From: Chiridota heheva
Taxonomy: Eukaryota; Echinodermata; Holothuroidea; Apodida; Chiridotidae
Length of the DNA stretch: 64,000 bases
NCBI GenBank assembly: GCA_020152595.1
Contig: JAIGNY010000912.1
Span: 346,001-410,000, forward strand
Direction: 5' to 3'
Within the stretch, counting starts at the first letter, position 1. Each line of letters starts with the position of its first letter. Position numbers and translations under genes: made by a program. This document shows, piece by piece, positions 10,377 to 49,763 of this stretch. The notes below the pieces were generated by a model. The model did not search any database. It was given only the letters and a program-made list of their open reading frames with translations, and was not told where the DNA came from.

Positions 10377-10505
10377 CAAGAGAAAATAATTGGCCGCCAT
10401 TACCAAAGTGGTTTCCGTTACAGCCATGTTTTTATCAAGATTTTTCTGTGGACATTCCGTTAGAGTTTCAAAGAACAGTAAAGATGGGATATTATCTTTG
10501 GATTG
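10377..10505 (+). CDS. SCAMP exon: WPPLP / [11 protein letters not shown] segment
   Basis: The most diagnostic SCAMP exon. It has 129 nt between acceptor TTTTCCACAG and donor GTATGT. It takes one base from the coiled-coil exon and gives one base to the next. It encodes [18 protein letters not shown], then [16 protein letters not shown] and KMGYYLWI. This cysteine/aromatic block immediately before the first membrane span is almost invariant in animal SCAMPs and lies on the cytosolic face. The final YYLWI begins TM1, which is completed by whichever of three alternative downstream exons is used. All three accept the same single-base phase. Confidence 0.96.
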
Positions 10506-10583
10506 GTATGTATTTCTTCCTTGAATGTTTGTTTCATTAACTTAGTTCAGACTTGAATTGAACCTTACGACCACTCCAAGATT

Positions 10584-10980
10584 TGTCCCCTAAGTGCTCC
10601 CTGGGGTCTGCTAGGGCCATTTCACATTCTGTCCCCTAAGTGCTCCCTGGGGTCTGCTAGAGCCATTTCACATTATGTCCCCTAGGTGCTCCCTGGGGTC
10701 TGCTAGGGCCATTTCACATTCTGTCCCCTAAGTGCTCCCTGGGGTCTGCTAGAGCCATTCTGCAGCCTGTCCCCTAGTGCTCCCTTGGGGTCTGCTAGGG
10801 CAATTCCATATTCTGTCCCCTAGGTGCTCCTGGGGTCTGCTAGGGCCATTTCACATTTTGTCCCTTGGGTGCTCCCTGGGGTCTGTTTGGGCCATTCCTC
10901 ATTATGTCCCCTAGGTGCTCCCTGGGCCTGCTTAGGCCATTCAACATTCTGTCCCCTAGGTGCTCCTCTGGGGCCTGTGT
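10584..10980. repeat. 46-bp minisatellite, ~8.5 copies, hairpin-forming
   Basis: Copies start at 10,584, 10,630, 10,676 and onward. The unit contains CCCCTAAGTGCTCCCTGGGG, whose CCCC and GGGG ends can pair within each unit and between units. The array begins 79 bp after the donor of the constant SCAMP exon and precedes the alternative-exon cluster. The open frames in it are repeat artefacts. Confidence 0.9.
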
Positions 10981-13333
10981 CTCCGATTGTGTTAACTTTA
11001 TTTTCTTCCTGTTGCAAGAGTTTGTCACATTGCTTAAGTTTAGAAAGTTGTCTTAATACCTGTTCAGTGAATGATGTTTGTGAAATCAAAATATTTAAAA
11101 ATTGTTCAATTATAAAAGTAAAAAGGTTTTCTTTATTATTTTATTTTTGACAAACATAGATTGATATTCCGGTTTCTTCATGCAAAGTTTTTTTGTCTTA
11201 AAGAAGAAACTCTGCTATATTGCTCACAGACAATCAAACAACTTATGTTTTATAAAACCCCATTACTCTTTTCGAAATTAAAACAGACAGTACGATTGAA
11301 TATTTACAAGAAATAATGCCTACTCCTCATAGATTCCAATGATAAATTTTACGATTCTATCATTTCTTTGTCATATATGGATTTTACTGTTAAAGTGCTG
11401 TAAACCCAAACAAAATAAGTATTATTTTGTATAGTTCTATTCCTTTAATGAAAAACATGATACATTTGTAAATGTGCAACTTTATTACATTTATGGTTGC
11501 AGGCAGAACGAACTGTCACAGAAATCTAGCTAAGTACCAAATTAGATTATGATCACTGTATCCCAATGTACAAACCGGAACTGCTAATCTGACATGCAGC
11601 AATGGAAAAAACAATTCATCTAAATGTTGTTTATATTTTCTCCTGGCCATTATTTAAAATATTTTTCTTGTTTATGCACAGTTCCAAACTTTAATTTAGT
11701 TTATAGGAGACATTAAAAGTAGCTTTATTATTTTGGTGACAATTAAAATGGATGGAATAGTGTTCTGTATTTTTGCATAAAAAAAAAAAATTAGTAGGTT
11801 AAAACAGATGATGTTGTGGTCAAATTTAATGTGCCGTCAAAATGTACAAGCAGTTAAATTTCATGGAAATTGATTAAGCTTCATTGCTGCTGTGTGCCAT
11901 TTTGAATTGAAATTAGAAATTGCTATGAATAATTTGTTGTAAGAGGAAACTCTTAAGTTTTCACCTTGTCTGTTTGGAATTGACATTCCCTTTTAAAACT
12001 ATTCACATGGGAAATTACTTACGATGGTTAAAGATGAAAAATATAGAGTTAATGGCAAATATTTTGAATCAAAATACTTGAGTTTGTACGGTTGATTAGC
12101 TGTAGCATAATGATGTGGACCTCTGCTTGTTTGTGGATATGGTCAGCGAGGGAGTTGAACATTTTGTGTAGGTGATTGGGTGGAGGCTAAATCCCTTAAT
12201 TTAAGTATGTTAAATGAGGCTTGCCGTCAAATAGCAAGGGTTCATGGATAAATGGGAATTGATTGATTTTGTTTTCATTTATTTCACAACCAAAACTTTG
12301 TTTACAACCAATGTTAAAGGAGAGGTAGGGATGAACATAAAGATATATTTACAACGGTTGATGGGAAAAAACTACTGAAAGCTTTAATATACATGAAAAT
12401 CCCCTAAAAATGCTTCTTAATGACTTTCTATACATTACATCAATGCAAACAAAAAAACAAAATACTCAGATATCTTAGCATTCAAACTACAAAGAGAAAA
12501 GAAAAAAATCAGAAAACAAATTAGATAAAAATGATAATAGCAACAATATTTAAATGCAATTAAAAAAAAAAAAATCTTAGATTTAATTTCATAAAGACAA
12601 AAATACAGCATTCGAACATTTTTGTGGAGTTCGTCAGAGGCACATGTGTTTTTATCAAACTTTAAAATCTTTAGGGAAGATGAAAGCTCTCATAGAGTAG
12701 TTTCTTTAGTCTGAAATTAGGAACTGATTGTTTTTGGCATGCAGTGTGCAATAGAATAGCTTTTTAACACTTAAGTCAATCATCACTGTACAGTTGACAG
12801 TGATTAATGTAGGAAGAATTGAGTAATTTATTTTTATGACATTTTTTTTTCAATGATACAAGATTCCCTTATCCTATGAAGTTGTATATGTGTTAGTTTA
12901 GGTGATAGTCCTGTTTTATGCCTGTAAATATTTGATATATTGAATATTACAAGAGAATCTACTTTTCAAATATTCTACTGGTTTAAACCTTACAAGCTAG
13001 CGCCATGTATTTAATTTATATCAGTGTATGCGCATCACATATTTTGAAGATTCTTTTAGTTATTTTATTGTAAACTATTATTAGCCTTTGCTGTAATAGT
13101 CAAAAAGAAAATGACAGTTACATATTTCTTCATGAATGAGATGATTTCAAAGAATGTAATTATGCCACTTTGTATCAAAAATTTGCTTGCATAGATTTTC
13201 CCGTTATTTTTAATTGAATAAGAACCTGAACGTTTCCATTAATTATTCTTCATCTTAATAATGAAACAACAAATTTCTCCACAGTTTTTTACTCAAATAA
13301 CCAACTTTTTTCCATTCTCTCTACCTCTTTCAG
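10981..13333. other. Intron sequence upstream of the alternative exon cluster
   Basis: About 2.3 kb of AT-rich DNA with several homopolymer A runs. I see no exon-like segment with the E-peptide signature and no clear transposon. Confidence 0.6.
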
Positions 13334-13498
13334 TATACACCTTTCTTCTATTTTTCAATGTCTGGATCGCGATGCTGGTTTTGATTGCCGTTTCCTCCTC
13401 CAAAGCTGGCCTTTGCTTTGGGCTGTCCATTTTATTTTTGTTATTTTCCCATCTGGTGCATATGTGTGTTGGTTCAGACCTGTATATAAAGCCTTTAG
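13334..13498 (+). pseudogene. SCAMP alternative exon TM1-TM2, copy 1, with 1-nt frameshift
   Basis: Acceptor CTACCTCTTTCAG and donor GTGAGAAG are intact. The first part reads VYTFLLFFNVWIAMLVLIAV, a loop SSSKAG and CFGLSILFLLF, matching copies 2 and 3. After the TTATTTTCCC run the conserved sequence [17 protein letters not shown] continues in a different frame, as if one T were missing. The length is 165 nt; copies 2 and 3 are 172 and 178 nt, both 1 modulo 3. As written the exon would shift the downstream frame. The deletion falls next to a T/C homopolymer, so either a sequencing/assembly error or true decay (or use as a frame-breaking exon) is possible. The strong splice sites and well-kept second half argue for recent or apparent damage. 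Confidence 0.85.
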
Positions 13499-13854
13499 GT
13501 GAGAAGGGAATAGAATAAAATGAGAATCAACTCATAAATCAACATCATCTGCTGGTGGGGCATCCCTCCATTCATTTACTTTTTTGACTGCTTAGTGTTT
13601 GTAATGCCATTTTGATCATCGCTTATAAGTTTAGCCGAGAAAGTCATGTCGTAGATCAATCGTCTCGTATGTCACATGCAATTACACCTGTCCGCTCTAT
13701 TCTTGCAGGTTTCATGATTGAATGCTTCAATTATGCTGTTTTCACCATTGATAAAATTGTTTTCAGAAATTATATATTTCTCACCTAAGAGGCATCATTG
13801 TGTACTGTTAATCTGTCATGATGATGTATCTGTCTGTGCTTGCAGTATCATGTA

Positions 13855-14153
13855 ATACCGTATTTGACGTATTAAACGCCCCTGCTCTAATAAACGCCTA
13901 CCTAACATTTTTGACCTATAACATAATTTATTTGATTAATTTGAATATGTAAAATACTCAAATTTTGTTACATTCTTTGCTTATTTTGTATTTGATCTTG
14001 GTGGTTAGTGTGGGGCTAGCATTGAACTAGCTCACGTATATGGACAATGCAGTTCGAGTGGCACACTGTACATGGCCCTTGAGGATGGGCGCTTATCAGG
14101 AAAAAAATTGGCCTGAAAAGTGGTGCAATTATATTTTTGTGTCGAATACGGTA
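13855..14153. mobile_element. ~300-bp inverted-repeat MITE (TACCGTATT family)
   Basis: Terminal inverted repeats TACCGTATTTGAC and GTCGAATACGGTA match at 12 of 13 positions. Just inside the left end lies CTGCTCTAATAAACGCCTAC, then CTAACATTTTTGACC. This internal block is closely related to the 27-bp unit of the large array at 38,068-40,420, and the right-end GGGCGCTTATCAG recurs there too. No coding capacity. Confidence 0.75.
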
Positions 14154-15593
14154 CTTCACATTTCCAAACAGCATTAATGACAAATTTAAAAAGGGCCGTA
14201 GGTCAATAGCATAAAGATTTCAGCTTCAGAGTACATCTGTATTGTATGTATAATCTTTGCCTCGCATATTATTTTGATTATTGATTAGTTCAATTTGGCA
14301 TACATGTCATACATCATCAGCTTTCTAGCGCCTTTAAGCATTTATGTACGTTACTTGAAGTCGCTTGCAGATTTGTTAGACTCTCATTTGCATCATTCTT
14401 TGCAGGTATAACAAGAGAATTGTCCCATCAATCAGTGCCATCCGCTTCAGTATTTATAGGGTGGGTGGTAGGGGGAGGGAGGGGGGTCTCACCCAAAATG
14501 AGTAAGAATCATGTCCAATGCTTCAAGAGTGAGGCAAAATGCCAAGATTCTTCTACATCATTCAGTTAGAGAATTGTTACTTCCCTAAATTCATTGTTTC
14601 TTAAACAAACTGGAAGAGATCATTGTCTCAACATTGGATACTAAATAAAATATCAGCTTAATTGTGAAAACATGCACTTATGTATCTCTCTCTATATATA
14701 TATACACCACAAATAAAAACCTGCAGCCCCAAATATCACAAAATATTGTTTTGTATGTGCCAGGACCCCATCTTCCCCCGCTTCCGGCAGATGACTTTGT
14801 ATGAGCATTGACTATGTATGCTTTATCTTATGTTATCTTTCTGTATGTAGCATTTCTGGAGTTTGCTTTGCATTAGGTCAATACAAAATGTATAGTATTC
14901 ATTTTTGTTACAGGAATTGTTTCATTGCATTAAGTTAAAAATTAGATCAGCAAGAAATTATTATTTTTTTATTCTGAAAGTTCATAGATTAAGTTTACAC
15001 GATGAACAAAGAAATATTTGTCTGGTGGATACTTCCAATAAAATAGTGCATCAGACTGCACAGGAGATCTGAACTTCAATGATGTATTAATGCAGTGTTC
15101 GCATTAGGTTGCAGGATTGAAACAAGAAAAATCCAATCATTTTGGGTAGGAAATTCCCGCAAAAAAAATTAAGTAAGCTTATAGTACCGAAGTATTACAT
15201 ATTTTCCAAATTCCCCTGCAAAAATTGATAAGGGGAGAACCTCCCCCCTCCCCCATCATCCTTCAACACTAATATTAATGTTGTTGGAAGAGAGAAGAGT
15301 CACAATCTAACATCAAAGAATTCGAATTAAGATTAAGTTAAGGGGTCAAATTTTCGACCTGTGAGTATCGGTCTTTGCTTATATGTATTGAATAAAACAT
15401 CATAGCACAGCCGTTGATCCCCATCTGTATCTGCTAGCTTCCTGTAAACTGCTTTTGCTGCTCTATGCAGGGGTCAAGGTGTTCATCTCTGCTCTAGTGT
15501 TTTAAATGAAACATTAATTGAAAATTCTTTTAAATAATTGTTTGAAATTTTCTTGGAATATGCCTTTCATTCCCATCTGCTTGCTTTCTGTAG
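14154..15593. other. Intron between alternative exon copies 1 and 2
   Basis: Contains a short (TA)n near 14,692-14,703 and two G- or C-rich patches (about 14,459-14,492 and 15,236-15,256). No further exon copy was found. Confidence 0.6.
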
Positions 15594-15765
15594 GTTACAC
15601 ACTGCTGCTCCTGTTGAACACCTTCGTTGCTTTCCTCGTTCTTTGCATTATCAAGGGCAGCGGCACAAGCACTGGTCTCTTGTTCGGCCTCTCTCTTATC
15701 TTTTTATTCTTGTTTTCTCCTGGGGCGTATGTCTGCTGGGTTAGACCTGTTTATAAAGCCTTTAG
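15594..15765 (+). CDS. SCAMP alternative exon TM1-TM2-E peptide, copy 2
   Basis: A 172-nt exon between acceptor CTTGCTTTCTGTAG and donor GTGAGAAG, phase 1 in and phase 2 out. It encodes the rest of TM1 (YTLLLLLNTFVAFLVLCII), a luminal loop KGSGTSTG, TM2 (LLFGLSLIFLFLFSPGAYVC) and the cytosolic [11 protein letters not shown]. The last element corresponds to the SCAMP E peptide between TM2 and TM3, reported in mammals to act in exocytosis and phosphoinositide binding. Splicing to 23,239 completes the Arg codon and gives KAFRSDSSF, as in the family. Sequence just beyond the donor resembles that of copy 1, suggesting these two separated most recently. Use of this copy leaves the frame fully open. 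Confidence 0.92.
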
Positions 15766-17749
15766 GTGAGAAGAAGGGTGAGGATTAAAATAGATATGTA
15801 GTACCATGCATATTCATGATCACAGGATTTTAGCTTTCAGAAACATCTTTGAACTTAAAATTGCTGCCAGCATTGTGTCATTTCTAGAGTAAGGGTCTTT
15901 GGCTGGGTCATTTATGATGACGAAATGAGCAAGTCATGTTCGTGTTTCCATCCATTCATCATACACTGGTGGATGTCTCAATGTTTGCTTCCCTACTTTG
16001 ATGCTTATTTGATTTATTTTGGGAAGACTTGATGCATATTGAGCAATAAAATCTGTATTAACGTGTAGGGCAAAAATCTTATGTGGTACCGGTACAGTAC
16101 ATCTAGTTAGCGGTGCACGCTCCATGCAGTCAATGCAATATACTGCACAAAACGAAATTTCTGCACACACAAGACTGAGTGACAACAAGATGGTGAACAA
16201 AAATTGTGCCTTTGGGCCCGCTACAGGCTTTGTTAATCTGATTCCCATTACCCAGAACGGTTAGCAAACACAATTTTGTTTATTCCTTTTGCTAAAAACT
16301 CTAAAGATCCGGAGAAGTGTCATAAATGGTTTAAAACTTATGGCAGGCCACATGAACATCAAGTGTCAGTCCATTGGTCATGCATGGATTGCGGATTTGA
16401 GATTTGTTTACCCCACTTAGTTACCGCATTGCTATGGTGGATGTGGCCTATTTGCGTACTCAGAGAGCTTAATTCCAGCTCTCACTCGCAAAAAAGTATG
16501 CTTGTACGCTCCAATAAAAAAACGAGAAAATTTATCAAATAAACAGACATACACACCTGTGTTTTTCCCCTCTACATTTATTGCCTTATTAATTCTTTTC
16601 CATTAAGTTCTGAAGAATTTTTTTTTGTGGCGCAATATGACCCCTGGATTTAATGTACCATTTAATCTAGCCAACCAACCAATCAAAAATTCAGCAATTT
16701 AGAGTTACCATTTTTGATTGCGATATTAGTAAATAAAGCTTGTTTGCTTTGGTCATCCCCATTGCAAATTATGGCTCTTTTTGATCTGTTAATAGCATCA
16801 ACACTATACTGTACCGTTTTGTTGCAGAGTAACTATGGCGTACAAAGAGAATTTGTTCAATTTATCATTTTTTCACAGCCTTCTATTTATGGCTTTACAT
16901 TATCAGTTGTCATCTTCATCGCCTCTCATTGTAGTGAAAGTCAGATTCACACTCGTGTCCATTATAATTTTGTTTCAAGCCCATCTTCCACAACAGCATC
17001 GTAAGAGCTCACTACACCTACCAGTCTACATTCGCATCTTACATTGTTTTGACATTCAAGACTTAAGCTTCATGATGGAATGTCTGACACTTTCAGTAAA
17101 TGTAATTTCATAAGAAGTACTTGATTGTTACTAAACATTTTCATTTCAGATGTACATCATCATTGTCAATGTAATTTCTCTGTGTATCTTGTGATGTTTG
17201 TTCTTCATTTTGACCTTCTTAGGACAAAGCCGCAGCCAAGATGTTTTGGTTTGGTTTTTTCTTCAGATGGGAATGGGTGGGGGCAAACACTTGAAGAGAG
17301 GGCACTTGAGAGTCTCCACCTCCCCTTGCTTTTCATTATCCACTCACCGAAGCTGGTGAAGAGGGGATATAGCATCTTCACCATTCGTCTGTCCATCCAC
17401 ATCTATTGTTAGTTCGTCCACATCTATTGTCCATCTAGCTTCATGCATTGGTCAGCTACTATGGAACAAAAGATTGCTACCCTAGGAAAGGAATTTCAAG
17501 TTATTTTTTTTTGAAAACAAATTTATATGAAGGAGAACAAATGCATTCCAGACTTTAATAGCAGCAATTAAAGGATTTGTTCTGGGATGAAAAAAAGTTG
17601 AATAATAGATGTGATGACTGAATGGAATTTATAATGAAGTGTCTTGCGAATGAATAGTAAAAAATGTCTTCACTTGAATAGAATGGACACTTAATAGACT
17701 TGTGATAATCTGCCAATTAATTTGTACTGAATTTTCATTCTGATTTGGG
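15766..17749. other. Intron between alternative exon copies 2 and 3, first part
   Basis: AT-rich intron. An open frame at 16,276-16,542 (with DPEKCHKWFKTYGRP) has a vaguely domain-like look, but no splice context or recognisable family. It may be a decayed transposon fragment. Nothing else is supported. Confidence 0.5.
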
Positions 17750-18620
17750 AGAACAGGGAGGTAATAGTGAAGGTTGGAATGATGAGTTAGTTAAGAGTAT
17801 ATTTGGTAGATGAGTGGATGGCAAAAGTGGGTTGGGGTAGTAGGTGAATGGATGATGGAAGGTGAATAGGGGATGTAAGGTGAATGGGGTATGTTGGGGA
17901 ATAGAGGATGATATGTGAATGGAGGACGGTAGACGAACGGGAGATAGGGCAGGTGAAGGGGATGCTAGGTGAATGGAGCGTGTTAAGTTGATGGGAGTTA
18001 GAGGAAAGAATGTTGGGTCAAAAAGTAGAATGATTGGTAGATATAGGAATTAGGATGAAGGTGGGATAGCATGAGGTACAGGATGGGATGATTGTGTGAC
18101 AGGGTGGATGGCATGTGGGACAGGGTGGATGGCATGTGGGACAGGGTGGATGGCATGTGGGACAGGGTGGCATGTGGGAGAGGGTACCATAGAATGTGGG
18201 ACAGGATGTCATGGCATATAGGACAGGGTGGCATGGGATGTGAAACATGGTAGTGTCATGGCATGTATAACAGATTGGGATGGCATGTGGGACAAGTTGG
18301 GATGGAATGGGGACAGAGTGTAATGACATGTGAGACTTGATGGCATGTCATCTGGATTTCAGGGTAGGATGGTACATGGGACAAAGTGGGATAGGACAGG
18401 TGGTGGTAGATGGAAGGGTGGCATGTGGGACAGGGTAGGAGGGTACATGGAGGGATTGGATATGGGACAAGGTGGCATGGTATATAAGACAGTGAGGGAT
18501 GGCAGGTGGGAGAGGGTGGCATGGTATATGGGACAGGGTGGCATGGTATATGGGACAGGGTGGCATGGTATATGGGACAGGGTGGCAAGGCATATGGTGA
18601 GATGTCATCTTGATTGCAGG
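17750..18620. repeat. G-rich minisatellite, ~20-22 bp unit
   Basis: From about 18,090 the sequence is tandem GGGACAGGGTGGATGGCATG and its variant GGTGGCATGGTATATGGGAC. The flank back to ~17,750 is a diverged version (GGTGAATGGGG-like). There are almost no Cs on the + strand in long stretches. Runs of GGG spaced 5-12 nt apart give some G-quadruplex potential. It lies between alternative exon copies 2 and 3. Reading frames on either strand are artefacts of the repeat. Confidence 0.85.
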
Positions 18621-19210
18621 TGTGATTGCATATGGGTCATGTTGTGGAATGGTATCTGGATTTCATGTATGATTTCCTGTTGGGAGAGATATAGGATGGG
18701 ACATGCAGAACAGAGGGTGGAATGGCAGTTGTGACATAAAGTGGAAAGCATGTTATTAGCAAGGAGGGGATTTGTATCATTTGCGATGTCTGGTTTTTCA
18801 TGTTATTTCACTCAAGGGGAGCACAGAACCTCCTGTGCTGGCAATGGACCTATATTAAAGATATGCCATATTTTTTACAGGTTGTACTGTCATTAAGATT
18901 AGACAGCTTACCTCACCTTTATGTTACCATTAAATCAAAGTTAGCATAGATTTCAAAAAGTGCGCAATTCAGTAAAAATTCGACGCAAAGTCATTTTGCT
19001 GGGAAGTTTGTTTTTAGTGCTTAGATGGGGTAATAAAATTATGGAGGCTATGTGGTCGTAAGTATAAACAAACCATGCTATTGCCGAGGTACATTCTGTT
19101 ATCATGTAGGGGAAGCCAGTTTGAAGTCACAAAGTGACTATAAATACTTCGCTCCAGTTGCAACTTCTTTGAAAAGAGCGCTAACAAGTGCAACTGCCTG
19201 CCAGTATGTT
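18621..19210. other. Intron sequence, nothing recognised
   Basis: Unremarkable intron sequence between the G-rich array and the first foldback element. Confidence 0.55.
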
Positions 19211-19532
19211 TTAAAGGATTAGTTCAAGGGTCAAGCAAGAACATCTTACATGAAAGAAGATTTCAAAACAAACCATTTGGTGAAGATTGCATTCACCTAT
19301 CTTATTTTGTGAAGGAGATATTCAGATTCAAATTACATTTGTGTCCAAACAAGTGAAATCTTCTAGACTTGCCGCACTAGCTGTTTCTGTTCAGGTATTC
19401 GAGACAGAGCTTTAAACTTGAATATCTCCTTAACAGAATAAGATACTGAACTAGTTTCTTCACCATTTCATTTCTTTTAAAGTTTTTTTTTACATAAGAT
19501 GAACTTGTTTGACCACTGAACTAATCCTTTAA
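19211..19532. mobile_element. TTAA foldback element family 1, compact copy
   Basis: TTAA-flanked at both ends. The left arm begins AGGATTAGTTCAAGGGTCAA and the right arm ends TTTGACCACTGAACTAATCC. At 322 bp it is essentially the two inverted arms joined back to back. It ends 112 bp before alternative exon copy 3. Confidence 0.78.
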
Positions 19533-19644
19533 TACTCACTGCACTAATAGCCATGAAATGATGTCAAATAATTTCCAGGTATAGAATATTTGTCATGCTC
19601 TCATATTCATGTCCATTGCTTTTGATTTTACCATCATTTCACAG

Positions 19645-19822
19645 TGTACTCCGTTGTCATGATCATAAACGTGTTCATCACAGCAGCATACTTTTTCGTT
19701 GCCACAACCATAGATACAATACAGGGGGCTGGAACGTGCTTTGGATTATCCCTATTACTATTGATATTATTTATTCCGGGATCCTATGTTTGCTGGTTCA
19801 GACCTGTTTACAAAGCATTCAG
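19645..19822 (+). CDS. SCAMP alternative exon TM1-TM2-E peptide, copy 3
   Basis: A 178-nt exon between acceptor CATCATTTCACAG and donor GTAACG, phase 1 in and phase 2 out. It encodes [19 protein letters not shown], a longer and more polar loop [15 protein letters not shown]2 [18 protein letters not shown] and the E peptide [11 protein letters not shown]. It keeps the pattern shared with copies 1 and 2 (an N in TM1, [18 protein letters not shown]) but otherwise differs at most TM1 and loop positions. This points to an old duplication kept under selection for the membrane fold. Its donor differs from the GTGAGAAG of the other two. Foldback transposon copies lie on both sides. Confidence 0.92.
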
Positions 19823-20122
19823 GTAACGTACAGGTTACTTCTATGTAAAAGAGTTTCGTGTGGCCATTTTGTTTAGGGTATAGGGGGATGTGTAGGGAAT
19901 TAGAGGATCCATAGTTGGAGTAGGGATGAAATTAAGCTTGGCTAACAAATTTAATTTTTGTAGATATATCAAATATTGCTGAGGAGTGTTACAAGACACA
20001 TGCTTTTGCCTTCTCTCCATTTCAGTATTTACCTTGCAAAATTTATTCTTCGATGATGACAAAGTTTAAAGGTCTACGGATTGATCAAAATGATCCTAAT
20101 GGACAAAACATTTAACTCAAAC

Positions 20123-20650
20123 TTAAAGGATTAGTTCGGGGTCAAGCATGTCCATTCTATATGAAAGAAGACTTTAAAAGAAACAGAATGGTAAAGAAAG
20201 CATTCAAAAATCTTATTCCCTCAAGGAGATATCCAAGTTTAAAGTTTGGCATTATTTGTGTAGAAACAACTGAAATCAGACTAGTTGTAATGTCACAGCC
20301 TCAGATTCCTTAAAATCTGTATGTATTTTAAAGAAAGTTTATTTCATTTTTTCACTATTTGAATTATTTATCCTCAAACTTACTTCAGGTGGTATGTTAT
20401 AAATACCTTTCCTAGATTCAGTTTTACTACTTTTTTGACATAAGCTATGGCTTTTAAACCACAAAATCGCAGGACAAAATATGATAGAATACATCAATAC
20501 TTTAAGGATTCTGAGGCTATGACATCACAACTAGTCTGATTTCAGTCGTTTCTACACAACATTTTTAAATGCTTTCTGCACCATTTTGTTTCTTTTGAAG
20601 TCTCTTTCAAATAACTTAAAACTTGCTTGACCACTGAACTAATCCTTTAA
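20123..20650. mobile_element. TTAA foldback element family 1, full copy
   Basis: Flanked by TTAA. The left arm begins AGGATTAGTTCGGGGTCAAG and the right arm ends CTTGACCACTGAACTAATCC, with a centre related to the copy at 8937-9517. It starts 300 bp after the donor of alternative exon copy 3. Confidence 0.78.
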
Positions 20651-22429
20651 GACAACCATATCATTTCTAATGCTCAGAAATGAACGAAATAGAAGTCTTG
20701 TCAAAATAAATAGATAAAAGCACAGGAATATGGCAAAAATTGCAGCTTGCAGGCAGTCCAGCTGCTGTCAGAATACAGTTTATGTCTTTGCAAAAAACTT
20801 ACAAATTTTCACAATTGAAGCATTGTCACCAATTTCATAACTATAGGCACATATCTGATGGGTAGGTATGAAATTGTCAAATTAAAAAACTTTTATCTTG
20901 ACTTGGGTTTCTTCCTCTTCGTATTTGTATGTTTTACAGTATTCATGTTGTTTACATAAAATTTGTGGCAGTATATATACCATTTGTGATTTGGATTCGT
21001 TTTCACCTCTATATTAAAAACATTTTCATAGAATTTTTCATTGATTTTGATATAAGATTCCACATCAAATCTTTTGTGAGTCTCACTAGAATTGTTCTGA
21101 TATTTCTTTCTTTCATAAGATACATCAGGAAAGGAGTAGATAATATTTGTCAGGGCACTAGAATGAATTTTTTAAATTTATATATAGTATTTTTAATTTC
21201 TTTGTATACACTTACAGAGTTATAACTTCTTCTTTTTTAGCAAAAAATGTTTTTGTTTTTGTTTTTTTAAAGCAAAAAAGATGTTTTTTTAAAGCAAAAA
21301 AGGTGTTTTTTTTAAAGCAAAAAAGGTGTTTTTAGCCAAAAAGAGATTATTCATGACCTATAATATAGACCCTTTCAAGTTGGCAATTTCAGAAAAACTA
21401 CTAATAATAATGTCACATGGCTGAAATTCTTGTGTACATATTGAACCAATAGTATTGGGGGAATCTTATCGCCCAAACAAATACAGTACTGGGGCATTTT
21501 TTTCTCGGCTGCTACACAATTCACATGGGTAATGAGACGAAGCACATGAAAAAATGTTATTAAATGCTATGTACAGTGCGTTATACAGTACATGAAGGTT
21601 ATTCCCATGCGCATTGCTGCTTACAACTTTTACACCAACAACTGCACCTGATTGGTCGTGCAACAAAAGGGATTATTTCCCCAGCCAATGCTTGCTCAGA
21701 AGTACTGAAGTAATGACATCCAGTTTTATTAAAGACCTGGCCTATTTGATGCTTCAATAAGTATCTACAGTACCATCGAAGTTGTGACTTCCTTTTACCA
21801 ATTATTTTTAAAATAACATGTCTTCATATTTTAGTCTTTGCCCCTTGAAGTAGTGCAATGTTATTTTTAGAAATTAGCTCTTTGTTTAGATAGTAATCTA
21901 TCAGATTCATAGTATTAAGGTAAATATAATTAGTAGAACAAATGGTTTGACATATCAATATGAGACCTACTTGCTCACTGGACATTAACTACTGTGCTGT
22001 CAAGAATATCTTGTCAGCTAAGGTATTTTCTGTTTGTACGGCAAATTAGTTGTCTGATGGTTAAACCTTGTTTAAGTTATGTCTGCCCGGGTATAAGGTT
22101 TGCTTGTCCTGGATACAGTGTTCACACTAGGAGTTCAAACTTTAAGGAGGGGATGATTTTTCCATTCCATTGTTTATTTTTGAGGAGATTTAAAAAGGGG
22201 GGGGAATGGAATTTATTTTTGGGGAGAAAAAAACAAAGACCAAAAATACAACAACAAAAAACCGGCCAAATTTGCCTCCTTTTTTTGGCAATTTTTTTTT
22301 TTTGCAGGATTTTTTTTGTTACAGTTGGTTGTTTCGGTAGATATAACAATAGATGTTTAAAATAGTAGAAATGGAAAGTTATTGTCCTGATTAGTTCATA
22401 TATTGGCATATTTTCTTAAATCATATTTT
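20651..22429. other. Intron sequence with a small T/A-rich repeat
   Basis: Mostly AT-rich. At 21,238-21,345 there are about four tandem copies of an AAAGCAAAAAAGGTGTTTTT-like unit. An open frame at 20,929-21,225 follows a TTTTACAG but hits a stop in the exon phase and lacks the E peptide, so it is not a fourth exon copy. Confidence 0.55.
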
Positions 22430-23236: not shown

Positions 23237-23238
23237 AG

Positions 23239-23340
23239 GAGTGACAGCTCATTCAACTTCTTCCTATTCTTTTTCATATTTTTCTTCCAATTTATTGCTT
23301 CGGTTATACAAGCAATTGGATTGGATGGGTTCGGAACCTG
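23239..23340 (+). CDS. SCAMP exon: third transmembrane segment (constant)
   Basis: A 102-nt constant exon between acceptor TTTCTTTTGCAG and donor GTAAGT. It enters after two carried bases (completing the Arg of KAFR) and leaves two bases (TG) for the next exon, which make Cys with either alternative partner. It encodes SDSSFNFFLFFFIFFFQFIA, then SVIQAIGLDGFGT. FR-SDSSF..F is a highly conserved SCAMP junction, and the phenylalanine-rich stretch is TM3. It lies between the two mutually exclusive clusters and must be included in every isoform for the frame to hold. Confidence 0.95.
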
Positions 23341-24836: not shown

Positions 24837-24984
24837 TGGGTTAGTTAATGGTCTGAAAACAATTGGCGATTCAAAGAGCGGTGACAACCAGAATACCTTT
24901 GGTATTGTGTTAGGGGTCCTGATGATACTCATTGGCTGTCTGTTTGGCGTTCTTGCTGTTCTAGATTTTCTGTATTTGACAAAG
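24837..24984 (+). CDS. SCAMP alternative exon TM3-4 loop and TM4, copy 1
   Basis: A 148-nt exon between acceptor GCTTTCTTTCCACAG and a weak donor GTTGAT. It starts by completing Cys and ends in phase 0 with LTK. It encodes CGLVNGLKTIGDSKSGDNQN, then TFGIVLGVLMILIGCLFGVL and AVLDFLYLTK: the luminal loop after TM3 and the whole of TM4. Compared with copy 2 at 26,920 the loop has six extra residues (acidic/polar, DSKSGDNQN). The CG..NGL start and AVLD...L.K end are shared. Both copies are 1 modulo 3 in length, so a transcript with both would shift frame before the last exon. Confidence 0.92.
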
Positions 24985-25332
24985 GTTGATAGAAGTATTT
25001 TTTCTTATCAGATAACCAATCCATCAGCCGTCAACTCAATACCATAATTTCATTCATTGAAATTATTGTCCATTTTTCTTTAAGGTTTTTTGCGAGTTGC
25101 TCATCAACCATTTTAGAAAGCAGAGTGGTAGTAAATTGTCTGGCTTTTTCCGTTGACACATTCATTCAATTATGTTCGCATTGTTCATTTGTCCAGGTTT
25201 TGTTGTCCATTGAGCCACTTTTTGCAGAAATAGTAAGATGCCAGGCAGTTGCTAGTGTTTTGTTTTAAAGAAAGTCCAAGTAATTACCATAATGGCTTGT
25301 CATGCTATGCATATGCATTTATTCCATTTTGC
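24985..25332. other. Intron sequence, nothing recognised
   Basis: Short intron stretch following the weak donor of TM4 copy 1. Nothing supported. Confidence 0.5.
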
Positions 25333-25419
25333 TTAACCCTAATTACTCTACCACGAGACCATATTATCGCCGTTCTGGGTGCCCCATTTAAAAAAAAATG
25401 CTGGTAGGGTAAGGGTTAA
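25333..25419. mobile_element. Tiny TTAA-CCCT inverted-repeat element, copy A
   Basis: TTAACCCTAATTACTCTACC at the left and GGTAGGGTAAGGGTTAA at the right are inverted repeats flanked by TTAA. The whole is only 87 bp. The CCCT start next to TTAA is what piggyBac-type ends look like; this is inference only. Confidence 0.6.
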
Positions 25420-25555
25420 TCAACCCGTGACAAGTGTGCCAACTCAAAAATATGTGCAGCATGATCCAGGTGGGCAGCCCAGTGGGTCACTGAAGCAGAA
25501 TGAACCCGACTCTGCTGCTCCGAAGACAGAGGACCCTTCAATAATCATTGTGTGC
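25420..25555. other. GC-richer segment between two tiny TTAA elements
   Basis: The 136 bp are less AT-rich than the surrounding intron. In one frame they read without stops as NQPVTSVPTQKYVQHDPGGQ, then PSGSLKQNEPDSAAPK. The sequence looks protein-like, but I see no splice sites, start or known family. It may be cargo of a composite of the two flanking elements, or a captured gene fragment. Confidence 0.35.
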
Positions 25556-25664
25556 TTAACCCTTCCTCTACCACATGGCGATATTATTGCTGTTTCTAGT
25601 GCTCTATGTTTGACTCGGCTTCCGAAGCACGTTTTCAAATACGTGCTGGTAGAGTAAGGATTAC
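25556..25664. mobile_element. Tiny TTAA-CCCT inverted-repeat element, copy B
   Basis: Begins TTAACCCTTCCTCTACCACA and ends GCTGGTAGAGTAAGGATTAC. The ends are related to copy A at 25,333-25,419. The right TTAA has become TTAC. Confidence 0.55.
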
Positions 25665-26289
25665 GTGGCCAATTATATGAATGGGCATAAATTGTAAACT
25701 ATCAGTTCTATTCATGGGTAAAAACTGCTTATTGTTTTTGTTGTTTTTGTGCTGGCAAAATTAGGTGTATTTTTAAAGAAAACAATGCTGTGCTGGGGAA
25801 AGGCTATCTTTCGGCTTTTAGTGCTATCAGAATCAGTTCTAGATGCTTGAACCACCCAGCCATTACACTTGCCTGGAGATTGTGAAGCCTTGAGTCTGAC
25901 AGTTACTAATATCTACGCTTAATAGCAAAACTTTAAGATAGCTGTTGTGGAGCCGTTACCCACTCCCCCCACCCCCTTCCCCAACCAATCAAACATTTTG
26001 GCTCTCACAATTTCCGGCAGTGAGTGAGAAAAGTAAATTTCAGTCAGTTAGCTGGTTAACAATTCCCTAACTTATTGACGTGGTACTCTGTTAATATATA
26101 TTCATAATTTGATCTGCCATATCTCAGAAAACTAAGGAAGATTTTGGCAAAATTTAAAGATTGTTTATCTTTGAATTTAAAACACATGAAACATTTCAAG
26201 TTTACGTTGTTGTCTAAAAGCTTTTTTCAGTGGTGTTTGTCCTTGTAGAAAGCATTGTCATGCAGAAGTAAGTATTACATTATATAGGT
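25665..26289. other. Intron sequence, nothing recognised
   Basis: Ordinary intron with one CCCCCCACCCCC patch near 25,966-25,980. Confidence 0.5.
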
Positions 26290-26850
26290 TTCCAGGACCT
26301 CAGTCATGTAAACATGTCAGGCATACCAAAAGTTGTCATGTAATCATGTCAGTCGTGTAAACATATCAGGCACATTAACATGTCAGGCATGTTTACATGC
26401 CAATCTTGTAAACATGTCAGGCATAGCAAAAATTGATCATGTAATTATGTCAGACATGCCAAAAGTTGATCATGTAAACATATCAGGTACATTAACATGT
26501 CAGGCATGTTTACATGTGAGTCTTGTAAACATGTCAGGCATGTTTACATGTCAGTCTTGTAAACATGTCAGGCATACCAAAAGTTGGTCATGTTTACATG
26601 TGAGTCTTGTAAACTTATCAGGCATGTTTACATGTCAGGCATATTTACATGTCAGTTGTGTAAACATGTCAGGCATGTTTACTTGCCAGTCTTGTAAACA
26701 TGTCAGTTTTGTAAACATATCAGACATGCCATAAGTTGATCATGTAAATATATCAGGCACATTAGTATGTCAGGTATGTGTACATGTCAGTCTTTTAGAC
26801 ATGTCGGACATGCCAAAAGTTAGTCATGTACACATGTCAGTCATCCATAA
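26290..26850. repeat. Palindrome-rich minisatellite (CATGT/ACATG units)
   Basis: Irregular tandem array of AAACATGTCAGGCATGTTTA, ACATGTCAGTCTTGTAAACA and CATGCCAAAAGTTGATCATG modules. TTTACATG and CATGTAAA alternate, so adjacent units can fold on each other. It ends about 70 bp before TM4 exon copy 2. Open frames are artefacts. Confidence 0.85.
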
Positions 26851-26919
26851 TCAGCATATTTAACGTAGTTGTTTGCGTCCATTTTGTTATCAAAACATGC
26901 TATTCTTTTCATTTCATAG

Positions 26920-27049
26920 CGGATGGATTAATGGCCTTAATTTGATGGGGCAGGCACAAGGTGGCCAACATATTGTAGCTGGTCTCATGCTCGTAGTAGG
27001 GGCTGCATTCACAACAATGGCCGTATTAGATGCCATTTTCTTACACAAG
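26920..27049 (+). CDS. SCAMP alternative exon TM3-4 loop and TM4, copy 2
   Basis: A 130-nt exon between acceptor CTTTTCATTTCATAG and donor GTGCCA. It completes the same Cys codon as copy 1 and leaves phase 0. It encodes CGWINGLNLMGQAQGGQHIV, then AGLMLVVGAAFTTMAVLDAI and FLHK. CGW.N/S-L.G is nearer than copy 1 to the usual family form, so this may be the ancestral or default choice. It joins directly to [12 protein letters not shown] at 32,079. Relative to copy 1 it has a shorter luminal loop and a small-residue-rich TM4 in place of one rich in Leu/Ile. The donor is a poor match to consensus, as is copy 1's, which would suit a regulated choice. Confidence 0.92.
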
Positions 27050-27375
27050 GTGCCAATTGTTTTGCTTTTTATTTTGTAATATTTGGTTACATATTTATTA
27101 TATGATGTCAAACGTGTACATTGTGTATGACACAGAGAGAGCTTGTGAAGAAATTACGTAGATGTCTTGTTCTGTTCAAGACATTTTGAGGTTTTAATGT
27201 CACAAGATTAAAAAACAATTCGTTAAGAAAGCCTACTTGACTGATGTGATGTATATACTTTCTTTACAATTGGTAAATTAAATGCTTGGAAGTTAATTTA
27301 TTTATCATTCTTGGGCTGAAAACATTTTTAAAATTTCAAGGGTTCGGATTGAAAATCTTTTACTACCCTCTCTTT
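27050..27375. other. Intron sequence, nothing recognised
   Basis: AT-rich intron following TM4 copy 2. Confidence 0.5.
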
Positions 27376-27712
27376 GATTATGCTGCAAACATATGCAATA
27401 CATTCTAATCACCCAAGATTATGCTGCAAGCATACGCAATACATTCTAATCACAAGATTATGCTGCAAGCATACGCAATATGTTCTAACCATACAAGATT
27501 ATGCTGCAAACATACGCAATATGTTCTAATCACACAAGATTATGCTGCAAGCATACGCAATATGTTCTAATCACACAAAATTATGCTGCAAGCATACGCA
27601 ATATGTTCTAATCACACAAGATTATGCTGCAAGCATACGCAATATGTTCTAATCATTCTAACACAAAATTATGCTGCAAACACGCAATACATTCTAATTA
27701 CACAAAAACAGC
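27376..27712. repeat. 41-bp minisatellite, ~8 copies
   Basis: The unit is CACACAAGATTATGCTGCAA followed by GCATACGCAATATGTTCTAAT. Copies begin at 27,376, 27,417, 27,456 and onward. It directly abuts the LINE that starts near 27,720. Confidence 0.88.
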
Positions 27713-30062
27713 ACCGATCTCTCCCTCACCTGCTGTCTCTGTTCTAAAATTATGGAAAAGATCATCAACCAGAGACTAAGCTGGTTCCTTGAGACCAACA
27801 GAATCTTCTCCCCTCACCAAAGCAGCTTCTGGAAATGCTGCAATACAGCGGATCAGTTAATCACGCTCAATCAAAAAAGGAACACCTCATTGCCATCTTT
27901 TTTGACCTCGAGATAGCTTTCGACACTACTTGGAAATACGGCATTAACCGCAAGCTCCACACCATCCGCCTCAGAAGCCACCTCCCCATCTTTATTGAAA
28001 ACTTCCTCTCACCCAGGCAGTTCCAATTTTGTATTGGCCACACCCTCTCCAACCTCTACCCCCAAGAAGAGGGTATCCCCCAAGACAGCATCCTCTCCCC
28101 TACTCTCTTCAACCTGAGCATTAACAACATCACGGACAACCTTGGCCCCAACATCAAATGTGGACGACTTCACCATCTTCTACTCCTCCCCTAGCTTTTT
28201 TCTCATTAAAAATAGGCTCCAACTTAGCCTCAATCGGCTGCAAGACTGGTGCAACAATAACAGTTTTAAATTCTCCAAAGACAAGACAGTCTGCATGCAC
28301 TTCTGTTATTTTAACAACCTCCACCCCAACCCGAACCTCGTGCTCAACAGCAATCACATCCCTAAGGTTGACCACACTAGTAGTTCCTGGGTCTAACCCC
28401 AAGTTCTTCTATGAGCAACACATCACCGACCTGAAACAGAAATGCAACAGCTCCCTCAATATTCTCCACCTCTCTCTTCAACACCACTTGGGGTGCGGAC
28501 CCCCATGCTCTTCTCAAAATCTTCAAGTTCACCATTCATGCCAAGCTCGACTATGGCAATATTGTCTACTATGCCACTCACAACTCTTACTACAACCACA
28601 TCAACACCATCTAAAATGAAGCCCACAGGCTTTGCCTGGGTGCTTACAGGACTTCCTCCATCACCAGCCTTCACATTGAACCCTCATCCTACTAAGGTGT
28701 ATAAAGCTTAGCCTTTCTTATGCTTCTAGAGCCCTCATTAACACCCAAAACCTTGTCTACAACCTCATTAGATATCCTAATTTCTCCACCTTCTTTGATA
28801 GGACTAAAACTATCCCCTCAAGCTTGTGCATGAAACCGGACCTCCACCATCTTGGTATCAAACCCGCCACTCTTGGCACCTTCTCCTGGCCCACTTTTCC
28901 TCCTTGGGCCACCGCCTTCCCTTCCATCCACTTTGCCTCTCCACTCATCACAAAACCCAACCCACCCAAACCTCTTCATCAACCTCCACAACCAAATCAA
29001 AGACCAACTCTCCAACTACACCTCCATCTATACTGATGGCTCCAAGAAAGACAGCAGCTGCTGCTGCCATCATCCAAGACATCACCTTCAGTAGCAGGCT
29101 TCCCAACTACTTGTCCATCTTCTCAGCCACGGCCATCCTGCTTGCTTTTAACTATACTGAGTAGTCCCCGCTCAGCCACTTTGCCATCTTCTCAGACTGG
29201 ACAAGACTGTCCTTCTCTACTCAACCTTAAGTGAGATAACCCCACGTCCCACCTCCTCCGTAAACTCTTTTCGCTCCCCCTCCTCCGTAAATTCCTTTCC
29301 CCCTCCTTAAATTCCTTTCGTCCACCCCTGCAGCCCCTACCTGCAGACCCCTCCCTCCAGCCCCCTTCCTCTGCAGGAAAAGTATTCTTATCTTCTGGAT
29401 GCCCAACTATGTTGGCATTCCGGCAACGACAGAGCTGATTCAGTTTTTAAGCTTGCCCTCAACCTCCCCCACCCCTTTTCCCAAAACTCTTCTGACATCA
29501 AACTGCTTATCACTTCCCTTGTTCGTGACCGCTGACAAACCTCTTGGGAATCCCAAATTGATAACAAACTCCACAACATCCAGCCCACTAAAGCCACAAT
29601 CTCTCGTGTAGACAATGTCCACATTACCTGCCTTAGAATAGGTCACACCCACCTCCTTACTGGCTCCCCCACCCCTCTGCATCAATTGTCATTGCCCCTT
29701 AGTCCACCACGTCCTCTTTGCCTACCTTCTGTACAACCTCCCCAAAGCTTCCCTTACTCCCCACAAATCCATAGCCGAGCTCTTGCAGAAAAAAACCGGG
29801 ATATAATTATTTCCTTCTTTCATTATGCCTCCCTCTACAACCATATTTAGTCCTCCTCTCCCACCCACCTCTCTCTCTACTTTTGCCCCCTTTTTCACCC
29901 ATGCACTTCCTCTTTTGATCCCAGCTTCCTAGCTCTTAGCCCCTGTACTTCTCTGAGACTCTCCTATTTTCTTTTCTTCCTACCTCTGGAATGATCTAAC
30001 CTCTCAGGCACAATTTGACCCTCGCTGTCGTGTTGCCACTAAGCCCTCATCAAACAAACAAA
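27713..30062 (+). mobile_element. Decayed LINE (family A): reverse transcriptase plus RNase H
   Basis: Frame-shifted and stop-ridden, but clearly a non-LTR retrotransposon. KIMEKIINQRLSWFLE starts the fingers region. IAFDTTW gives motif A. EEGIPQDSILSPTLFN gives motif B, with D for the usual G. A DDFTIFYSS stretch in another frame gives motif C. Farther on, YTDGSKKDSS looks like the start of an RNase H domain, and RIGHTHLLTGSP is the C-terminal zinc-knuckle region. The 3' end is TTTGACCCTCGCTGTCGTGT followed by CATCAAACAAACAAACAAC. The RT plus RNase H order suits an I-type or related clade. The element is inactive: several frameshifts, no 5' ORF. It sits in the last SCAMP intron in sense orientation. 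Confidence 0.85.
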
Positions 30063-30375
30063 CAACAAACTTCAGGAATAACTCCCCAGATAAAATGTTC
30101 TCCTTCCTTCACCATACCGCCCTCTACAACCATATTTAGTCCCCCTCCTACCTTTAGTCCCACCCTCTACCTACTTTTAATTTTTCCCTTTTTTTACACT
30201 CCTGCACTTCCTCTTTCAGTCACAGCTTACTTGATATTAGCCCTTGTCCTTCTATCAGACTTCTCCTATTATCTTTTTGTCATTCCTCTGGAATGATCTA
30301 ACCTTTCAGGCACAATTTGACCCTTGTCGTTACGGTGCCGTTAAGCCTTCATCAAACAAACACAATTTCCAGAAA
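30063..30375 (+). mobile_element. Second, 3'-only copy of LINE family A in tandem
   Basis: 30,080-30,372 repeats the last ~270 bp of the preceding LINE: CCCTCTACAACCATATTTAG, CTCTGGAATGATCTAACC, TTTGACCCTTGTCGTTACGG, CATCAAACAAACAC. Divergence is moderate. Either a truncated insertion landed next to the first copy's end, or the 3' end was tandemly duplicated. Confidence 0.8.
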
Positions 30376-30611
30376 ATTTCAATAAAGTGTACGAAGACGA
30401 AGCGACTGAGTCTGGGATGTCGCTTCTAGTCTTATGCCAGTCATTTCTACACAAATCTGATATTTAAGTTTTTGAAATTGCCTTCAAGCTTTTTGAATGG
30501 TTTCTGCACCATATTAGATAAACATTCTTTTACCTCTAAATGTAATCTTTAAGAAGCGTTATTAAAACTAGGGACAGACATGACATTTGTTATGAGATAA
30601 CATTAAAAACA

Positions 30612-31252
30612 TTAAAAGTATGAGTTCATTGGTAAAAAAATTGCCTCATATGAAAGAGGTCTTCAAAAGAAACAAAATGGTGAAGAAGTAGTAAGAAATC
30701 TTGTTTTGTTTGTTATTCAAGTTTAAAGCTCTGTCTTATCTGTTTAGAAATGACTGGTGAAGTATGTGTACCATGGAAGGTTGGCATCTTCATCCTCACA
30801 TTTTGAACAATTATTAATGTATATCAAAGGAAATTTATTTAATGTTTTTTACTGGTGGTAAATTATAATTACTCTTTATTTCTTCACTTATTCATTGGTT
30901 TTCAAGCCAAAAAGCACAGGACAAAATTTGATAGAATACATTAAGATTTTGAAGAATCTTGAGGCTGTGATGTCACAACTAGTCTGATTTCAGTTGTTCC
31001 TACACAAACTATACCAAACTTAATACTTAAATATTTCCTTAACGAAATGAGATTTGTGAATGCTCTCTTTACCATTTTTGTTTTTTTTGAAGTCCTCTTT
31101 CATATAAGATAGACATGTTGGACCCCTGAACTAATCCTTTAGATATCTCCTTAACGGGATAAGAATTGTGAATGCTTTCTTCACCATTTTGTTTTTTTGA
31201 AGTCCTCTTTCATATCAGATAGACATGCTTGACCGTTACCTAATCCATTTAA
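30612..31252. mobile_element. TTAA foldback element family 1, copy with duplicated right arm
   Basis: TTAA lies at both ends. The left arm (AAGTATGAGTTCATTGGT) is diverged. The right arm (ATATTTCCTTAACG to GAACTAATCCTTTAG) is followed at once by a second right arm ending TTGACCGTTACCTAATCC. The centre matches the copies at 8937 and 20,123. Confidence 0.7.
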
Positions 31253-31430
31253 TGATGTGATGTTTAACTTCCAGTCATATTTTATTTCTGCCTTTCACTC
31301 AATCAATCATTTTCCATCGATCAATGGAATAGTTAATCAATACATATTAATCAATCAGTATATGTAGATCACGGAGGTAGTTTTTAATATGTATGTAAAT
31401 GAAAGAAGAAACAACTTTCCCAAACAATTT

Positions 31431-31525
31431 TAAAGTCAACTTTGATAAGTCAACTTTGGTAAGTCAACTGTGATCAGTCAACTGTGATAAGTCAACTTTG
31501 ATAAGTCAACTTTGATAAGTTCTTT
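31431..31525. repeat. 15-bp minisatellite, ~6 copies
   Basis: AAGTCAACTTTGATA and variants (GGTA, TGTGATC) in tandem. No coding role. Confidence 0.8.
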
Positions 31526-32078
31526 ACTAACTCTGGGCATCTGATTATCATTATAATTTTTTGTGGTGTTTGTGCTTTTTATGGGGTGACTAAGAAGGCT
31601 TAGCTCGTAATCTTGTAATGGTATGTTAACCCGATTCATTTCAAACATTAGAACTTAAGCAAAAGGAAGCTTGTCTTTTGAAATAATGCACTTTAGATAA
31701 AGATGAAAAATTAGGTTGTAAGGCAGTACAGACTTACTAATTGATATAAGATTCAAGTGAAGATATTGCTTGGATCTATTATTTGAACTAAAAATATTCT
31801 TGTAAATTCTGTGAAAAATTTGTCCCTATTCTTGTAAAATTCCTCGTCCTCTCTTGCCTCCAAGAAGCTTTGATTCAAATTGTGTTTAAGTAGTTCAAAA
31901 CATTTAAGAAAGGATGTCAATTTTGACTTGTCACATACACCTATTTATTGATTCATGGGGCATCAAAACATGATATTTTTACCCTTCACCATGGAAAAAA
32001 CAGACTCTTAAATCTCTCCTTTATCTTCCAAATAATCTTAACCTATTGCATAACAACTATCACACACCTTTTTCACAG
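31526..32078. other. Intron sequence before the last SCAMP exon
   Basis: AT-rich. It ends in a good pyrimidine tract and acceptor (CACACACCTTTTTCACAG). Nothing else is seen. Confidence 0.55.
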
Positions 32079-32240
32079 GTTCATACACTGTACCGAGGCA
32101 CAGGCGCCAGCTTTGAAAAAGCCCAGCAAGAATTTGCAAAGAACGTTGTTTCCAACCCAGGAGTGCAATCAGCGACGAAACAAGCTGCTTCAGCTGCCGT
32201 CAGTGGGGCTGTGGATGCGTCTATCAACAACAGGATGTAA
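32079..32240 (+). CDS. SCAMP last exon: C-terminal cytosolic tail and stop
   Basis: The 162-nt terminal coding exon enters in phase 0, so it accepts either TM4 copy. It encodes [20 protein letters not shown], then [20 protein letters not shown] and a tail ending SINNRM before [19 protein letters not shown] is one of the most conserved SCAMP signatures, immediately after TM4 on the cytosolic side. Summing the visible exons with TM1-2 copy 2 and TM4 copy 1 gives 951 nt (316 residues plus stop). With copy 3 and TM4 copy 2 the sum is 939 nt (312 plus stop). Both are in frame, which supports the whole model. Confidence 0.97.
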
Positions 32241-45540: not shown

Positions 45541-46010
<470 letters not shown>

Positions 46011-46193
46011 TCATGAAAAATACAAAAACAAGATTATAAGCATCTTTCTAGATCCCATTAACTGTTTTATCAATTAAACTTGAATAAACATGAAATGAAG
46101 CTTTTAAAATCTTACTACAATGAAACAGTAACAATTTATATGACACTTTCATGGTTTAACATCTGGGATTGAAACTGGTGGCTCAATGACTAA

Positions 46194-47790: not shown

Positions 47791-49763
<1,973 letters not shown>

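Follow-up and report, generated by a model that had tools for sequence, protein, structure and literature searches.

The SCAMP locus and its duplicated exons

We analyzed a 64,000-nucleotide stretch of the genome of the sea cucumber Chiridota heheva (GCA_020152595.1, contig JAIGNY010000912.1, positions 346,001 to 410,000; hereafter, the window), which carries a SCAMP gene on its plus strand, from 912 to 32240. The gene is composed of constant exons and two groups of exon copies (Table 1). The three copies of cluster 1 (A, B, and C) each encode the first transmembrane span (TM1), the luminal loop, TM2, and the E peptide, and the two copies of cluster 2 (D1 and D2) each encode the loop between TM3 and TM4, together with TM4. 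Based upon exon lengths and phases, copy number in the genome, and predicted isoforms of other animals, it is highly probable that these are two independent clusters of mutually exclusive exons, so that several SCAMPs would be generated from one gene by splicing, and not by gene duplication. A preliminary description of the locus had proposed such an arrangement, and its borders (the end of E3, the starts of A, B, C, D1, and D2, and the ends of the TM3 and last coding exons) are the same as those in Table 1. It had also reported that all splice sites are present, and we indeed find an AG acceptor and a GT donor at every exon.

Table 1. Exons assigned to the C. heheva SCAMP gene (window positions, unless otherwise stated)
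Feature	Position	Length	Strand	Content	Basis
Constant exon E1	912..1040	129 nt	+	cytosolic proline-rich N-terminal part	AG/GT borders, frame
Constant exon E2	6282..6390		+	charged ELEQKAAELQRREQQLR stretch, coiled coil by eye	borders, frame
Constant exon E3	10377..10505		+	...YYLWI, donor gtatgt, phase 1	borders; protein match in own genome
Cluster 1 exon A	13334..13498	165 nt	+	frameshifted in assembly within 13444-13456	
Cluster 1 exon B	15594..15765	172 nt	+	TM1, luminal loop, TM2, E peptide	
Cluster 1 exon C	19645..19822	178 nt	+	TM1, luminal loop, TM2, E peptide	
Constant TM3 exon	23239..23340	102 nt	+	TM3, between the clusters	
Cluster 2 exon D1	24837..24984	148 nt	+	I-type TM3-4 loop, TM4; weak donor gttgat	
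Cluster 2 exon D2	26920..27049	130 nt	+	W-type TM3-4 loop, TM4; weak donor gtgcca	
Constant last coding exon	32079..32240		+	...NNRM, then stop TAA	
Upstream exon	contig 344412-344522 (~1.5 kb before window)			NPF motif	tblastn with N termini of relatives

When joined in frame from E1, the exons give a product of 310 residues with B and D2, and of 318 residues with C and D1, which score 191.7 and 186.5 bits, respectively, against the Pfam SCAMP family PF04144 (cut-off 27); a fragment that includes exon A in its raw frame scores 78.5 bits. We also made hidden Markov models (HMMs) from other species and ran them on the six-frame, stop-to-stop segments of at least 15 residues from the whole window. 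Each of the three plus two copies surrounding a single constant TM3 exon, as put forward in the preliminary description, was matched by these models. The cluster 1 model found C (E 4e-23), B (1.6e-19), and A, which was split between two matches in different frames (2.5e-9 and 9.2e-9); the cluster 2 model found D1 (3.2e-16) and D2 (1.1e-15); and the TM3 model found the TM3 exon (1.3e-12). The TM3 model also matched D1 (3.4e-5) and D2 (0.0032), because some of its rows, from fused gene models, contained cluster 2 sequence. No further exon copies were found in the window, the next-best E values being 0.57 (cluster 1), 0.31 (cluster 2), and 1.6 (TM3).

This is the sole SCAMP gene found, among the best-scoring candidates, in the 1.1 Gb genome (1.10 Gb in 3,744 contigs). 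Seven of eight scored candidates from a protein search of the genome, and three of 12 from a PF04144 search, gave a match, all at this locus, with D1 not among the matches of either search. Exon A and its flanks occur once in the genome, apart from a short match to B. We considered the possibility that the copies are an artifact of collapsed haplotypes or misjoined paralogous genes, given that the genome is in 3,744 contigs and that the published C. heheva assembly is long-read based and highly heterozygous (PMC8913654: Nanopore reads polished with Illumina data, 1.107 Gb in 4,609 contigs, heterozygosity 2%). However, 42-56% of the aligned amino acids are different between copies, well past haplotype divergence, no second locus was found in the genome (D1 lying outside the coverage of this search), and matching cassettes are present in isoforms of other species. 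An assembly artifact of this kind is therefore extremely improbable.

At the 5′ end of the gene, a tblastn search of the locus with the N termini of relatives identified an exon upstream of the window with one secure NPF motif (GLEEFNPFED). Its alignment is good from DPSVQQATANSS onward, and the beginning of the match has an in-frame stop. The same search of the locus did not find a first exon with MSDFDSNPFADP.

Four membrane spans are supported by the hydropathy of the window exons. As a stand-in for the window protein, we used a predicted model of a relative from Apostichopus japonicus, P0010 (mean pLDDT 73.9, pTM 0.57, with the ten-residue blocks from 151 to 300 at 83-98), in which there are four long helices (148-182, 186-217, 220-242, and 264-305). 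When mapped by eye onto this model, cluster 1 covers residues 163-216, i.e., most of TM1, the loop, TM2, and the E peptide, and cluster 2 covers residues 250-297, which form a short loop helix and TM4. On this predicted model, TM3 is the only membrane span held constant. Comparison with solved structures gave two weak N-terminal sequence matches, to Dps proteins, and a fold search gave no match at an E value of 0.001 or better. The E peptide that follows TM2 contains a Cys-Trp pair, described as most important (PMC10316736), in each of A, B, and C, and neither residue varies across an alignment of 50 SCAMPs. At one position, the E peptide of B has Val and those of A and C have Phe, and in exon A the E peptide is downstream of the frame break.

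Reading frame and the proposed choice between exon copies

The four intact alternative exons, B, C, D1, and D2, all have lengths that are 1 modulo 3. E3 ends in phase 1, the TM3 exon both starts and ends in phase 2, and the last exon begins in phase 0; within each cluster the phases are equal, with A, B, and C all following phase 1, and D1 and D2 both entering in phase 2 and leaving in phase 0. From these lengths and flanking phases it follows that the frame is broken if a cluster is skipped, or if two intact members of it are used. We therefore retain the proposal of one SCAMP gene with two mutually exclusive clusters, to which the arithmetic of phases and lengths, the single locus, and the isoforms of relatives lend support, with the reservation that exon A is frameshifted. 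Since it is, only four of the six combinations (B or C with D1 or D2) are open in this assembly, and not the "up to six" SCAMPs that had been predicted. As judged from the DNA, each transcript would combine one cluster 1 exon with one cluster 2 exon, all isoforms would have the same TM3 and the same cytosolic tails, and a message with no copy, or with two, would be frameshifted and probably degraded. The differences between copies are rich in synonymous changes (21/7/37 at codon positions 1/2/3 for B and C, and 21/10/34 for D1 and D2).

D1 might instead be an alternative last exon, yielding a SCAMP with a different short tail, as its donor is weak and its reading frame continues for 20 codons into the intron, being open to 25044, after which there is a TAA stop. 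However, the 1,935 nt separating D1 and D2 contain neither AATAAA nor ATTAAA, and the tail downstream of the I-type cassette is the usual one (VH..YR) in Diadema X1, in Branchiostoma floridae X1, and in oysters. We therefore regard a terminal D1 as very improbable, and treat it as a member of cluster 2.

How would one copy be chosen? Steric crowding was rejected as an explanation, as the introns between copies (2,095 nt for A-B, 3,879 nt for B-C, and 1,935 nt for D1-D2) are too long, and incompatibility between U2 and U12 sites was rejected, as donors are GT, acceptors are AG, and no U12 consensus was apparent by eye. Given the long introns and the GT/AG sites throughout, trans-acting splicing factors are the likeliest means of choice. 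The donors of cluster 1 pair strongly with U1 (-9.4 to -9.5 kcal/mol) and those of cluster 2 weakly (-4.1 and -5.3 kcal/mol), and weak donors may perhaps assist the choice in cluster 2. Of the 1,157 GT sites in the stretch, 22% pair with U1 at least as well as the D1 donor, 11% as well as the D2 donor, and 32% as well as that of the constant exon E2.

Several points argue against mutually exclusive splicing at this locus. The E2 donor pairs with U1 even more weakly (-2.9 kcal/mol) than those of cluster 2, and donor weakness is therefore no marker of alternative exons. A search for docking and selector RNA structures, as inverted pairs of at least 20 nt, returned only repeats (n = 21), of which 18 belong to a dispersed repeat family found on both sides of exon C and within the last intron, and three to a local repeat between D1 and D2. 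In addition, the assembled exon A is out of frame, and the isoforms of relatives are computer-annotated gene models.

The dispersed inverted-repeat family (AAAGGATTAGTTCA...GGTCAAGCA) flanks exon C at 19202-19541 and 20125-20654, with arms such as those at 19410-19514 and 20140-20244 (105 nt, 77% complementary), and has related copies at ~30400-31249 and, by eye, at 8940-9500. The repeats around exon C could loop this exon out, yet they look like transposon remains.

Exon A requires separate consideration. Its length is 0 modulo 3, in contrast to the other four alternative exons; its first 37 codons continue the frame set by E3, whereas its final codons are in that required by TM3, which amounts to a net shift of one base. 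Alternative splice sites at its ends would not restore the frame, because the two halves of the exon need different frames. It is possible, though unlikely, that A was recently broken, or is deliberately unproductive and serves as a "poison" exon that lowers SCAMP output, in which case cluster 1 would have two coding members. As expected for such an exon, A is out of frame at 165 nt and both products that contain it reach an early stop in the D exon; furthermore, its splice sites are intact, and with the strong donor of B and a pyrimidine-rich acceptor it would be expected to be spliced. Against this, neither part of A contains a stop, and by eye the exon keeps the residues that are invariant in the 50 aligned SCAMPs on both sides of the break. 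Nor does A have a clear excess of changes at codon positions 1 and 2 (21/9/33 for A and C, versus 21/7/37 for B and C), unlike an exon kept for its splice sites alone, and the break sits in a T/C run. Long-read assemblies are prone to error in such runs. The otherwise undecayed sequence of exon A is best accounted for by an error in the assembly, or else by a mutation that arose very recently, and A would most likely be a working third option of cluster 1, with a frame broken in one of these ways.

Elsewhere in the window, the last intron, downstream of D2, contains, at 27835-28194, a reverse transcriptase (RVT_1) remnant that we read as LINE-like. A long tandem repeat at 38183-40333, open on both strands (NSAHPTFLT / RVGAISQKC), is read as a minisatellite, rather than a gene. 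On the minus strand, at 45392-49230, is a zinc-finger gene that we take to be ZC2HC1-like; an open frame of 440 residues contains five zf-C2HC_2 stretches, and a neighboring frame contains one more.

Cassettes in other animals and the age of the clusters

The closest match in the protein database is 67% identical to the window protein, which in a tree of the constant parts stands beside Apostichopus and another holothurian-like protein (100/98). Of 188 proteins fetched, 173 could be parsed into cassettes. Isoforms X3, X2, and X4 of A. japonicus have near-identical flanks and differ at cassette 1 (identity 0.49) and cassette 2 (0.27); they represent three of the four possible two-by-two combinations, with the two cassettes changed independently. 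Similarly, Diadema X1 and X2 have near-identical flanks and a cassette 2 identity of 0.45. Both cassettes vary among B. floridae X1, X4, and X5 (identities of 0.53 and 0.36), cassette 1 varies between B. belcheri X1 and X2 (0.59), and Lytechinus variegatus X2 and L. pictus X3, which come from two species of one genus, have identities of 0.46 at each cassette. Within oyster species, cassette 2 identity is 0.35-0.47 and that of TM3 is 0.56-0.69, with some borders parsed seven residues apart. Consequently, the exon arrangement is not peculiar to C. heheva, given that the predicted isoforms of Apostichopus, Diadema, Branchiostoma, and, in part, oysters also differ at the cassettes; nor are the copies confined to this assembly, matching cassettes being present in those predicted isoforms. 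A further holothurian-like protein, P0009, is a full open reading frame of 349 residues on a contig of 1,954 bases (source "lgn"). A contig of that length leaves too little room for a gene as large as this one, and P0009 is therefore probably derived from a spliced transcript that carries a single version of each cassette.

In oysters, TM3 is also exchanged (SDSSFNFF...QFICTIIQ versus SDSSFSFF...ICCIVM or ICCVVM), a third alternative site that was not seen in the window. The proteins concerned are P0019, P0022, P0027, P0032, P0036, P0039, P0050, P0063, and P0101.

The cluster 2 cassettes fall into a W-type (CGWIN..., as in D2) and an I-type (CG[ILV][IV]N..., as in D1). We noticed three gene models in which both cluster 2 exons are fused (B. 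belcheri P0121, Mya P0083, and Nucella P0109), and in all three the I-type precedes the W-type, which is the order of D1 and D2 in the window. Our cluster 2 tree had 51 rows (18 I-type, 28 W-type, and five unlabelled), with labels assigned mostly by the third residue. Using the whole cassette (40 columns), the I-type and W-type rows are on opposite sides of a single branch (89/92), a split which appears to rest partly on the label residue itself. In a reduced tree of 50 rows, from which the first four residues (including the label residue) were removed and Ciona was dropped, the I/W split needs two changes; constraining the I-type rows together was worse by 9.68 log units and was not rejected (p-AU 0.305), and constraining all deuterostome rows together was better than the free tree (p-AU 0.6). 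With a set of 21 rows, the I/W split was 91/97 and the grouping of deuterostome rows was still not rejected (p-AU 0.582); when the label residue was masked, the deuterostome rows formed a clade (95/94) and the I-type grouping had a p-AU of 0.215. An origin of the pair within echinoderms alone was not rejected either (p-AU 0.339 and 0.194), and nor were separate origins in protostomes and deuterostomes. The trees were therefore set aside as a means of dating the pair, since they show neither a bilaterian nor a deuterostome origin.

We also computed similarity scores between cassettes without the first four residues. The B. floridae I-type scores 125 with L. variegatus, 119 with Diadema, and 89 with D1 of the window, as compared to 38 with its own W-type, and the Saccostrea I-type likewise scores higher with D1 (90) than with the W-type of Saccostrea itself (55). 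Two comparisons speak against an old I/W pair: the Mya I-type is nearer to its own W2 (75) than to D1 (69), and D2 is nearer to the L. variegatus I-type (91) than to the B. floridae W-type (67). A search with the I-type cassette region of lancelets matched only lancelets (two proteins among seven candidates), and was too insensitive to show absence elsewhere. Overall, the cluster 2 pair looks old on these sequence comparisons and is probably common to echinoderms and lancelets, and possibly to bilaterians.

In the cluster 1 tree, the cassettes tend to group by animal group, with mostly weak support: two lancelet variants are together (100/99), a third is near the vertebrates, and A groups with B (98/76). 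By score, A and B are each slightly nearer to an urchin cassette (107 and 104) than to one another (97). A single origin of cluster 1 for lancelets and echinoderms is the worse reading of this tendency, and the cluster seems to be lineage-specific, having probably grown separately in the two groups.

All 56 named vertebrate proteins of the SCAMP1/2 type are W-type (53 by pattern and three by eye), in a set that consists of representatives of 90% identity clusters, so that isoforms may be hidden, and in which SCAMP3-5 are not listed. We can only tentatively suggest, as a history that is somewhat more doubtful than not, that the bilaterian ancestor already had the D1/D2 pair as mutually exclusive exons, that echinoderms, lancelets, and molluscs have kept it in I-before-W order, and that vertebrates lost it as separate SCAMP genes arose, with further duplications, around this pair, of cluster 1 and of the oyster TM3 exon, such that nearly the whole membrane core became exchangeable on fixed tails.

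Parallels and significance

No description of mutually exclusive exons in a SCAMP was present among the matches listed in the open-access full-text literature, outside of which most subscription papers lie. Excerpts of PMC4912780, PMC2715136, PMC8797185, and PMC1794582 concern other subjects, and SCAMP does not occur in the main text of a study of human tandem duplicated exons (PMC9741552). The earlier remark that no description is known thus stands for the matches listed, with the qualification that isoforms of this kind are already among the predicted proteins named by NCBI.

The closest parallel is the muscle myosin heavy chain (Mhc; PMC3912159). In arthropods, a single Mhc gene has separate clusters of alternative exons, whereas vertebrates use several genes (PMC2257972), and according to the abstract of PMC3912159, an Mhc cluster of mutually exclusive exons was already present in the ancestor of bilaterians, and vertebrates have lost it. 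Mhc is, however, a motor protein, whereas SCAMP would exchange the membrane spans of a vesicle protein. SNAP-25 is likewise a single-copy gene of exocytosis with a duplicated, mutually exclusive exon (5a/5b), but it encodes a SNARE, has a single cluster, of two exons, and is described for higher vertebrates (PMC2581893). Mammalian SCAMP1-5 belong to the same family, with four spans and an E peptide, and also diversify one scaffold (PMC4235465, PMC10316736), but do so as five separate genes; Drosophila has one Scamp gene and mammals have five (PMC4235465). Lastly, the core of NALCN channels is varied through alternative forms of the selectivity filter (PMC3557258), although here it is a channel pore, in another gene family, that is altered.

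Taken together, the C. heheva gene appears to be a real, conserved, and apparently undescribed case in which a known mechanism, mutually exclusive exons, acts on the membrane core of a trafficking protein. Its isoforms would have the partners of their tails in common and differ in the membrane core, and exchange of the core would allow one trafficking machinery to be tuned, from cell type to cell type, in its sorting or in its contacts with lipids or cargo. SCAMPs function in vesicle trafficking and regulated secretion, and to our knowledge, the roles of their membrane core and of their tails have so far been poorly separated. A gene that naturally exchanges the core whilst leaving the tails unchanged would be a ready-made experiment, and may add to muscle myosin heavy chain a second example of alternative exons in invertebrates that correspond to gene copies in vertebrates.

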